DNA from: Clostridiales bacterium DTU074
Lineage (GTDB): Bacteria > Bacillota > Clostridia > Caldicoprobacterales > Caldicoprobacteraceae
Length of the DNA stretch: 38,388 nt
Reading direction: 5' to 3'
NCBI GenBank assembly: GCA_001513075.1
Contig: LFSE01000108.1
Location: 1 to 38,388, forward strand
The notes beneath the pieces are model-generated. The model was not told the origin of the DNA, ran no database searches, and worked only from the letters and a program-made list of their open reading frames with translations. A program made the position numbers and the translations under genes. Shown here piece by piece: positions 1-3,263 of the stretch. Each line of letters begins with the position of its first letter. Position 1 is the stretch's first letter.

Positions 1-8
1 CCGAGGCA

Positions 9-38
9 TGAGCTTTGGCTCAACTTATTTTTCTTTTT
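9..38 (+). terminator. Possible intrinsic terminator at the left edge
   Basis: A short stem TGAGC/GCTCA (9-13 with 18-22, loop TTTG) is followed by a T-rich tract (ACTTATTTTTCTTTTT). This would end transcription entering from a plus-strand gene left of the window. The stem has only 5 bp, so confidence is modest. Confidence 0.35.
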
Positions 39-160
39 ACACCATTATATAGACTTAATCCCATTAAAGCATCAATTAATTTTGTATTATAATAGTACTA
101 ACCAAACCATAATTTCTTCCACTATATAAATGAAAGTTTTCAAAATGGAAACCAGGAGGC

Positions 161-1740
161 ATGATTTTGGAACAGAAGGAACTTCATAAGATAATTGAAC
201 AGTCGGCAAAAACCATTTTTTCTTACTGCCTTTCCCGCACAAATTCAAAAACAGAAGCAGAAGATTTATCTCAGGATATACTCGTAGAGCTTATGAATTC
301 ATCATGCAATTTGCGTGATTAAAAGGCATTTTATGGATTTATGTGGTCGGTAGCAAGAAACGTATACAAAAACTGGTGCAAAAAGAAGGGCAAATACTTT
401 TATGAACTGGATGAACAGCTCCCGGAAAATGATGATTCCATTGAGGTATTACTCGAAAAAAACACTGAATTATCGCTGCTGCGGCGAGAATTATCTCTTT
501 TATCAGAAAAGTACCGTAAAGCAACTGTTTTCTATTACTTTGAAGGACTGTCTGTTCCAAAGATCTCTGCCAAAATGAATGTTTCCGAAAGTATGGTTAA
601 ATACCTGGTATTTAAATCAAGAAAATTATTGAAAGAAGGGATGGAGATGGACAGAAATTATGGTGAGCAAAGTTATAATCCAAAGAGTTTGATGCTACTC
701 TATTGGGGAAACGGTCCAAACAATTATTATGATCTATGTAAAAGAAAAATACCTCAGAATATCCTGATGGCATGCTACAATGATGCCCTTACAGTTGAGG
801 AAATCAGTTTACAGACTGGTGTACCGGTGGCTTACTTAGAAGATGATATCGTCATATTGGTTGAGAATGATGTATTAATGCGGAAAGGCAATAGGTATTT
901 AACCAATGTAGTAATTTTACAAAAGAATTTACACAAGAAGTAAACCAAAAAGCATCAAATTTGCAAAAAGAAATTGCCAACTGTGTAATGAATGCAATAA
1001 ATGATAAAGAAAAAGAAGTAAGATCTCTGAATTTCCATGGAAGTGATATGGACAATAATACTTTTCACTGGCAAATGACTTGCTTTATCCTATATCAAGC
1101 TATTGTAGAGAAATTACAAGGTAATATACAGATTGTTTTTCCAAAAACCAAAACCGGAACAAATGCTTTTGTCTGGGGCTGTGAAATTTTTGAAAATGAT
1201 AATTGGAGCGATGGTTTCGGCTTTGGGATTTCAAATATTAACAGCCGTAAAGGCGACTATATTGAATTTATGGATTTTCCAATTAATGCTCAACCTATGG
1301 TACATCTCTATTTTAGCAGTAACATCGCTGCTGCGAATGTATACTTTGACATAGCAAACGGAAAACAGGATGGATTTTCGGAGAATGATCTTGAGCTGAT
1401 TGCTCAAATGCTTCAAAAGGGATATTTGAAGAAAAACAATAACAAACTTGTTATAAACTGTCCTATTTTTTGTAAAGAACAGTTTGAATATTTAGTGAAA
1501 ATTTTCGATAATGTTACTACCTCGATTTGTGAAAAAACAAAATCAATGATTGGGATCATAACAGAAATATTATTAAATCACACTCCCAACTATTTGCACG
1601 AAACAGCAAAGCAACTTGCTTATCTACGTTTGTTTGAGGATGCAATATCTGCCCCCATCAGACTGCTGTACAATAATGGATTTATTGTTAAGCAACCAGA
1701 AAGCGAAATGCTGCCAACAACCTACATTAGAAAAGCATAA
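161..1740 (+). pseudogene. Sigma-70-family-like gene with C-terminal extension, broken by a stop and a frameshift
   Basis: Reading from ATG 161 (alternative TTG 167, better spaced from AGGAGG at about 154-159) gives an ECF-like sigma region 2: EAEDLSQDILVELM, then AFYGFMWSVARNVYKNW. An in-frame TAA at 320-322 interrupts it at codon 54, just where LRD-x-KAF should continue; GAA to TAA would explain it. Region 4 follows (LSEKYRKATVFYYFEGLSV, with a helix-turn-helix near KISAKMNVSESMVKYL). The frame ends at 943, but coding sense resumes one frame over: restoring one T in the T4 tract at 915-918 gives VVIFTKEFTQEVNQKASNLQ, which runs unbroken to 1740. Repaired length is about 526 residues. The roughly 270-residue C-terminal part is unrecognised; it may be a sensor or regulatory extension. 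A restart at ATG 341 would lack most of region 2. Two independent lesions favour a pseudogene, although sequencing error or recoding cannot be excluded. Confidence 0.8.
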
Positions 1741-1785: not shown

Positions 1786-1804
1786 TCTGGTGGAGGCGAG
1801 GGGA

Positions 1805-2091
1805 CACATTCTTCCACTGTTTCCAGTGGTGCTGACTATGTCTTGAACTCCATACTGAGTTCCCCGGCGTATTATGAAAGCCATATTATAGTTTCCAGCT
1901 TCCATCCTAGTACTTCATGTCCGATACATATAATCTAATATCACACATCGGATTTAGAAGCCTATGAGTCGATACAGGGCTGTTGGATTTCTCCACATAC
2001 CCCTCGGCGTTACCGTCGGCTTTACGTTACGGCTTCACCGATTAAGCCGGGTTTTCACTTGCAGATCGCTCTGCAAGGCGACTCTTTTTGA
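1805..2091 (-). ncRNA. Group I (IA-like) self-splicing intron in the T-loop of ssrA, no ORF
   Basis: Helices trace in order along the minus strand. P1 is exon CGAUUC with intron GAGUCG; U2092 pairs with G2082 and marks the 5' splice site. P2 is CUUGCAG/CUGCAAG. The P-Q core (AAUCGGUGAAGCC and GGUAACGCCGAGG) forms P4 UCGGUG/CGCCGA and P5 GCCG/CGGU, with AA joints on both sides. P6a is UGGA-GAAA-UCCA. P7 is GACU/AGUC with a bulge, its 3' strand inside AAGACAUAGUC. P3 is CCCGGC/GCCGGG. P8 is GAACUC/GAGUUC. P9 is CCACUG-GAAA-CAGUGG. The intron ends with G at 1805. Extra stems (UCCGAU/AUCGGA nested in GCUUC/GAAGU) lie between the 5' strand of P7 and the 3' strand of P3, which is where group IA introns carry P7.1/P7.2. 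No homing endonuclease frame is present. Established knowledge: group I introns occur in some bacterial tmRNA and tRNA genes. Confidence 0.93.
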
Positions 2092-2302
2092 ATCGAACCC
2101 CTGTCCGAAGATATCTCAACGAAAGCTTCTCCGAGCGCAGTCAGTGTTTTAACATTCCCTCCACCGGACTCCCACTGACAGGATTCCGGTTTTGGTAGCT
2201 TCATAAATATCCGGCCTGCCGCAAAGCTTAGGCAGGTTCGTTCCCCACTGAGTCGGCGCCCAGCACCTGCAGCGTGGGCACTACAGGGTGGACGTTAGCT
2301 GC

Positions 2303-2338
2303 TTATTAAGCAGCTAAGGCTAATTGTGCGTCGTCTGC
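2303..2338 (-). other. tmRNA tag-peptide reading frame (ADDAQLALAA, double stop)
   Basis: The minus strand from the resume codon GCA (2336-2338) encodes ADDAQLALAA and then TAA TAA. The LALAA end fits the hydrophobic Ala-Ala degron recognised by ClpXP-type proteases. The resume codon is inferred from the frame and from typical tag lengths; the preceding, non-encoded alanine comes from charged tmRNA. Confidence 0.85.
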
Positions 2339-2451
2339 ACTTATTTTTAATTCCAGGTTGTTTACGCGGCCCCGGAGTCCGCGGCTCGCTTCTCTCGTCT
2401 CGACTATCCCCGTCGAAACCTGTACGCCCCCATGATGTATATCGTGTTATT

Positions 2452-2621: not shown

Positions 2622-3089
2622 CTATATCCTCTGGCGCTCGCGAAAGGCCCTTTCCATTGCCCTCTCCGCATCTCGTCGAGCAATGCTTTCACGCTTATCG
2701 TAAATCTTTTTGCCCCTTGCGACCGCCAGCTCGATCTTTACCAAACCCCTTTTCAAATAAACTTTAGTGGGAACAAGGGTATATCCCCTTTGCTGTACAT
2801 AACCGGTAAGCTTGTTTATCTCCCTGCGATTGAGCAGCAGCTTCCGTGTCCTTAACGGATCTCTGTTGAATATATTGCCCTTCTCATAGGGGCTTATATG
2901 CATATTGTAGAGATAAACCTCACCATCCTTAATGCTAGCATAGCTATCTCGGATGTTGACCTTGCCTAAGCGTATTGATTTAACTTCGGTCCCGACCAAA
3001 ACAATACCGGCTTCATAAGTTTCTTCAATGAAATAGTCATGCCTGGCCTTCTTATTCTGGGCAATTACTTTGATACCTTCCTCAGCCAT
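2622..3089 (-). CDS. smpB: SsrA-binding protein SmpB
   Basis: SmpB binds the tRNA-like domain of tmRNA and brings it to stalled ribosomes. The 155-residue product is of normal family length. It shows the oligonucleotide-binding fold motifs [27 protein letters not shown] (in part), the central [28 protein letters not shown] and the basic C-terminal tail [20 protein letters not shown] that enters the decoding channel. The ATG at 3089 gives the canonical [11 protein letters not shown] start, with a TAGGTG site about 10 nt upstream; the frame runs open further upstream without SmpB-like sequence. The gene precedes ssrA on the same strand with 190 bp between, so the protein and RNA partners are linked. 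A promoter lies about 175 bp upstream. Confidence 0.96.
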
Positions 3090-3263
3090 TAACTTAACAC
3101 CTACTATGTGACAAAATAACCCTACCTGCACTGGCAATTCAGAACAAATAGGGTTTGATTCTCTATCGTCCTTTGGCAAACTATCTTCATCATCAAGCGC
3201 ACCCGATACCCACCTACACAGGTCAATAACCTGCGCTGCTTAATTCGATTAAATTGCATATAA

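Follow-up and report, generated by a model that had tools for sequence, protein, structure and literature searches.

A group I intron in the T-loop of a clostridial tmRNA gene, and a LAGLIDADG gene beside ssrA in relatives that may move such introns in trans

Widespread as they are, the group I introns of tmRNA genes hardly ever encode a homing endonuclease, which raises the question of how they reach new hosts; an enzyme gene located outside the intron would solve this puzzle. The question is posed here by a split tmRNA gene (ssrA) in the window, the whole 38,388-nucleotide stretch analysed (Clostridiales bacterium DTU074, contig LFSE01000108.1). The first report of group I introns in the tmRNA T-loop, at loop position 7, is said to be that of Williams in 2002. 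An earlier note on this DNA, which proposed such an intron, described tmRNA introns as known in some bacteria and details of this one as perhaps worth comparing; the latter wording understates what is known, a published set comprising 883 tmRNA genes with T-loop introns, most at the same position, with a mean intron length of 293 bp (PMC11915505). An endonuclease gene is present inside 36 of these 883 introns (4%), leaving 96% without one (PMC11915505). The features of the locus are as follows.

1789..2431, minus strand: ssrA (pre-tmRNA), 643 nt, or 356 nt once the intron is out
1805..2091, minus strand: group I intron, 287 nt, between T-loop bases 59 and 60
2303..2338, minus strand: tag reading frame ADDAQLALAA, then two stops (ARAGORN on the spliced sequence)
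2622..3179, minus strand: smpB, upstream of ssrA on the same strand (Pfam SmpB, E 5e-65)

The tRNA-like ends, the resume codon with its tag and the pseudoknots of a tmRNA are all recognized, by RF00023 and by ARAGORN in the spliced form. The gene nevertheless illustrates how split ssrA escapes annotation tools: the RF00023 match (161.5 bits) halts at 2089, within the T-loop, and ARAGORN calls no tmRNA on the raw window, while after in silico removal of the intron it reports a 356-nt tmRNA with the tag ADDAQLALAA. The acceptor stem (GGGGGCG/CGCCTCC) and the T-stem (AGGGG/CCCCT) are whole only with the 287 nt from 2091 to 1805 excised, and the T-loop then reads TTCGATT, as the earlier note had predicted. 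The insertion point lies past loop base 6, between TTCGAT and T (tRNA positions 59 and 60). The exact coordinates follow from the boundary rules of a U before the 5' splice site and a G at the 3' end; they coincide with the bounds proposed earlier, to which the minus strand can now be added. Downstream of ssrA, window positions 1-1740 hold two plus-strand ORFs, one encoding a sigma-70 region 4 protein (341-943) and the other a 259-aa protein without a Pfam match (961-1740). Different ORFs occupy this side in the same-genus genome G001, so the 3' flank of ssrA is variable even inside the genus.

Identification of the insert as a group I intron does not depend on the generic covariance model. 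The Rfam searches suggested in the earlier note gave the tmRNA score above and, for Intron_gpI (RF00028), a match of 38.0 bits (E 5.1e-8) that covers the full model length and is the only one in the genome, yet does not reach the gathering score of 50. This 12-bit shortfall is measured against a score threshold set for a generic model, which is not in itself a biological property. Because of the low score the structure was examined by independent pair counts, in which 38 homologous introns were aligned and 72 group I pairs of the window's intron were scored, spanning P1, P2, P3, P4, P5, P6, P6a, P7, P7.1, P7.2, P8, P9.0 and P9. The elements are located as follows.

2079..2095, minus strand: P1, exon CGAU plus intron UC pairing with GAGUCG, U-1·G at the 5' splice site
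2058..2077, minus strand: P2, 8 bp, loop GCGA, double-sided changes in 7 of 8 pairs
2046..2051, minus strand: P3 5' strand CCCGGC, partner 1863-1868, 3 pairs with double-sided changes
2004..2041, minus strand: P4 (UCGGUG/CGCCGA) and P5, joints AA and AA (pair counts)
1976..2003, minus strand: P6 and P6a (UGGA GAAA UCCA) (pair counts)
1964..1970, minus strand: P7 5' strand GACU(C)AU, partner 1834-1839 (pair counts)
1913..1960, minus strand: P7.1, double-sided changes in 3 of 4 basal pairs
1874..1905, minus strand: P7.2, double-sided changes in 6 of 8 pairs
1863..1868, minus strand: P3 3' strand GCCGGG (pair counts in the 38 homologues)
1845..1862, minus strand: P8, GAACUC/GAGUUC, double-sided changes in 6 of 6 pairs
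1834..1844, minus strand: J8/7 and P7 3' strand AAGACAUAGUC (RF00028 match and pair counts)
1806..1832, minus strand: P9.0 (GCA/UGU) flanking P9 (CCACUG GAAA CAGUGG) (pair counts)
1805..1805, minus strand: terminal (omega) G, a G in 42 of 42 homologues

Across this alignment 95.7% of cells are paired, compared with 81.3% in shuffles and 34-41% in slid versions, and 441 cells are changed on both sides, as against 132 and 41-64, respectively. Double-sided changes occur in 43 pairs, a value that none of 500 shuffles equalled, and the fold of the single strand is more stable than that of shuffled sequences (z -5.6). Individual helices behave differently: pairing is seen in 98.7% of P1 cells, 100% of P6 and 97% of P6a, the last two with double-sided changes; P7 is nearly invariant (5 of 6 pairs), as are four pairs of P4; the distal part of P5 is variable and its pairs are the weakest; and P9.0 alternates CA/UG with UG/CA. 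P7.1 and P7.2, the subgroup IA feature between P7 and P3, both have covariation support. Thus the U-G splice pair, P1 to P9, the AA joints of P4/P5, the 3' strand of P7 and the terminal G that the earlier note had listed were each located, its GNRA loops on P6a and P9 are both GAAA, and its description of a tmRNA T-loop intron with P7.1/P7.2 and no endonuclease inside is borne out.

The splice-site pair covaries as well. In all 42 distinct interrupted ssrA genes the intron ends in G; immediately before the 5' splice site 40 of them have U and two have C, and both C cases (G012 and G023) carry A opposite, such that C·A replaces U·G. This rare form has been described among tmRNA introns (PMC11915505). 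A candidate for a different insertion site, G083, was dropped, as base 60 is just G in that gene. These data make it highly probable that the insert from 2091 to 1805 is a group I ribozyme interrupting the genome's only tmRNA gene, most likely working like other group I introns. In itself the intron is nothing out of the ordinary and represents a further case of the published type.

If so, the precursor would fold such that a guanosine attacks after U59, which the U·G pair in P1 keeps in place; the freed U59 would in turn attack behind the terminal G and link ...TTCGAT to T-CCCCT-CGCCTCC-ACCA, and the joined exons would complete the T-arm and acceptor stem, rendering the tmRNA chargeable. We infer that the intron is spliced inside the cell. 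The coupling of intron activity to ribosome rescue through splicing, as put forward in the earlier note, is a fair inference because the genome holds a single ssrA, beside smpB, and DTU074 would join the bacteria that rely on a ribozyme for ribosome rescue. The converse view holds that the group I intron has lost its splicing activity through decay, leaving the tmRNA either dead or charged without splicing. The 12-bit deficit would fit, and decayed relatives exist: G603 ssrA (L166, about 1410-1620, minus strand) gives a weak tmRNA match and has a shrunken intron missing P7.1 to P8, probably a decayed copy. Such decay is hardly credible in the window, where the core helices, splice-site pair and omega G are all intact, the intron of G001 is only 2% different, and the sole ssrA has kept its tag.

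The distribution of the intron is patchy. It occurs in 7 of 30 genomes of the window's order, being 98% identical in G001 and 94% identical in G004, a sister-genus genome whose congeners G003, G005 and G006 are intronless. A tree built from 112 ssrA exon sequences requires 23 or more switches between presence and absence of the intron, some of them between close sisters such as G004, with the intron, and G003, without. Position 59 is C in 51 of 70 intronless genes and T in 40 of 42 interrupted ones. In the tree of the introns themselves several host families hold together, and a branch with support 94/98 separates the window's order from the rest. This grouping is what old inheritance with repeated loss, and no homing, would produce, and that explanation keeps some weight while being doubtful as a full account, as it sits poorly with state changes between close sisters and with the linked homing endonuclease gene described below, in which dN is far below dS. 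Given the intron tree, vertical descent accompanied by loss may operate alongside local spread. A search for copies on phages and plasmids found no tmRNA intron, two phage matches ending at the splice site; a viral contig (L225) sharing a conserved 16-mer of the intron was a chance match within coding sequence. The G642 intron (L158) reaches 463 nt through a P7.1 insert of ~200 nt with inverted repeats and no endonuclease match.

With regard to the endonuclease, the earlier note spoke of the loss of any endonuclease ORF. No such gene is present inside the intron or elsewhere in the genome of the window, where profile scans recovered no LAGLIDADG neighbour gene or trace of one, and no remnant between ssrA and the contig end. 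In many relatives, however, a LAGLIDADG gene lies outside the intron. It is a free-standing ORF of ~136 aa, convergent with ssrA and usually 34-140 bp past its end (34-67 bp in the initial set of several interrupted genes). The protein is a single-motif LAGLIDADG (Pfam) with a profile match to a chain of the homing endonuclease I-MsoI (E 2e-14), and its dN is far below a dS that is saturated. The loci are as follows.

L152, L023, L139, L141, L065, L071, L072, L197, L306-L353: free-standing convergent LAGLIDADG gene by interrupted ssrA (for L340 and L343 see below)
L065, L071, L072: named isolates with the gene, Neobacillus drentensis JC05 (complete chromosome; gene at L065 4836-5237, minus strand), Siminovitchia fortis and Bacillus sp. 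MM2020_1, respectively
L143 1759-2904, plus strand (G304), and L131 164-1258, minus strand (G208): two-motif LAGLIDADG genes with an N-terminal cysteine motif

The gene tracks the intron. In a set of 109 ssrA loci whose downstream sequence extends for 150 bp or more, a few of them recruited through the endonuclease search itself, an intact copy adjoins 8 of the 40 interrupted genes and none of the 69 uninterrupted ones (Fisher p 2e-4, uncorrected for kinship). In unselected Bacillaceae-type loci recruited by SmpB, it lies beside all three interrupted ssrA genes that have downstream room and beside none of 17 uninterrupted ones. Profile scans of ~780 genomes returned full-length open copies in eight. 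Five of these adjoin an interrupted ssrA; in G677 the copy is next to the displaced end of such a gene, in G767 it lies 15 kb downstream of one, and in G550 it is located at a contig end. Fragments of the gene occur beside interrupted (G004, G007, G021, G583) and uninterrupted ssrA (G081, G683, G691, G267, G217, G340); G004 belongs to the family of the window.

The association was replicated in two families, picked for carrying the intron or the gene, in which 48 full-length hits (two with a stop codon) were read as loci. Thirty-five are within 1.5 kb of an interrupted ssrA, convergent wherever orientation was read, and seven sit 2.6-25 kb downstream of one (G800, G987, G964, G930, G1030, G1040, G904), as if displaced by an insertion. 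Three accompany uninterrupted ssrA (G1015, G986, G997) and three were not placed (G815, G891, G973). Of the resolved copies, 42/45 are therefore linked to an intron-bearing ssrA and 3/45 are not, so that strict confinement of the enzyme gene to intron-bearing ssrA is nearly, yet not strictly, true. In G997 the gene is 4.7 kb from an intronless ssrA with an ordinary T-arm. In the congeners G1015 and G986 (L340, L343) an intact copy is 1.1 kb from an intronless ssrA with the T-stem ACGGG/CCCGT, a possible escape through target change. The interrupted ssrA of their congener G1002 has AGGGG/CCCCT, unlike these two.

Two other functions can be proposed for this gene. It might be mere cargo of an integration hotspot, unrelated to the intron, as islands seem to integrate at ssrA, where ssrA relics and displaced gene copies are seen. 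We consider this unlikely in view of the fixed convergent orientation and usual 34-140 bp spacing across unrelated families; moreover, nearly all full-length copies accompany an intron-bearing ssrA, and most of the distant ones appear displaced downstream of one. Each relic duplicates the intron together with the 3' end of ssrA, lies some kb downstream of the intact gene and looks like the end of a genomic island.

L167 1313-1627, minus strand: relic copy, G677
L161: relic copy, G497
L136: relic copy, G304
L144: relic copy, G280

In G677 an AAA ATPase gene and an RloB-like gene lie between the intact ssrA and the relic. An integrase cutting inside the intron would agree with the relics of G677 and G497, but those of G304 and G280 begin elsewhere, and no site is claimed. 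Alternatively, since some LAGLIDADG proteins are maturases, the neighbouring protein could aid splicing, for which its membership of the family and the linkage to the intron speak. This role is quite improbable: most of the sampled intron-bearing genomes, the window's included, lack the gene, and the Clostridium botulinum tmRNA intron, used in a construct between exons of 338 nt and 24 nt, is cited as self-splicing in vitro (PMC2729099).

The reading that we favour, with moderate confidence, is that the relatives of the window's intron spread by collaborative homing through the free-standing LAGLIDADG enzyme. Encoded just downstream of ssrA, the enzyme would cut intronless T-arms, and repair of the break would copy the intron and the linked enzyme gene together; the intron would split the target site, protecting the host ssrA; the enzyme gene would then decay and the intron be lost, leaving fragments such as those seen. 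Single-motif LAGLIDADG enzymes act as homodimers on near-palindromes, and the T-arm AGGGGTTCGATTCCCCT, itself a near-palindrome, is the putative target. Stated more broadly, we think it reasonably probable that Bacillota tmRNA introns have been moved in trans by a dedicated convergent LAGLIDADG enzyme recognizing AGGGGTTCGATTCCCCT, retained for the most part as long as ssrA is protected by the intron, and decaying afterwards. It should be noted that the scarcity of such neighbours among sampled intron-bearing genes, the three genomes in which the enzyme gene is full length but ssrA has no intron, and an intron tree that tracks host families at several points, as inheritance with loss also would, all count against homing. 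A free-standing endonuclease gene near an intron-bearing gene, which collaborative homing requires, is found in relatives and is absent from the window. The lineage of the window is probably at a late stage of the homing cycle, its enzyme gene gone and its intron inherited passively, because its genome has no trace of the gene while the sister genus retains a fragment.

At the equivalent place in G304 and G208, the two-motif genes (382 and 365 aa), co-directional and just downstream of interrupted ssrA, are predicted to encode a second, different enzyme type. A search of phages and plasmids for a close homologue of the endonuclease gene found none, phage relatives being merely 31-46% identical. 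If correct, homing in trans would explain why only ~4% of tmRNA introns carry an endonuclease despite their spread over many phyla, and the cycle of invasion, enzyme decay and intron loss would be testable in Neobacillus drentensis JC05 and Siminovitchia fortis. The new element is the ssrA-linked endonuclease gene, found in relatives and absent from the window, which merits follow-up; a literature search, with key older papers outside it, yielded no paper on ssrA-adjacent endonuclease genes, and a prior mention is possible.

Compared with known systems, the intron of the window shares with the position-7 tmRNA introns of Nawrocki, Petrov and Williams (2025, PMC11915505) the gene, the site between T-loop bases 6 and 7, the size (287 versus a mean of 293), the -1U·G, the omega G, the lack of an endonuclease gene inside and a Bacillota-like host; the rare -1C·A form of that set also occurs among its relatives, and there is no difference in kind. 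The endonuclease count in that work refers to genes inside introns, and ssrA-adjacent LAGLIDADG genes are unmentioned. The C. botulinum tmRNA intron is of equal length (287 nt) and also lies in a tmRNA gene, in a different host (PMC2729099). The homodimeric endonucleases I-MsoI and I-CreI have a single motif, as does the ~136-aa neighbour protein; they are encoded inside introns, whereas the ssrA neighbours lie outside, downstream of the host gene. Collaborative homing has been reviewed for phages, for example in psbA of cyanophages (PMC3984707); the present system would be a case on the chromosomes of bacteria, with a tmRNA gene as host and enzymes of the LAGLIDADG family.
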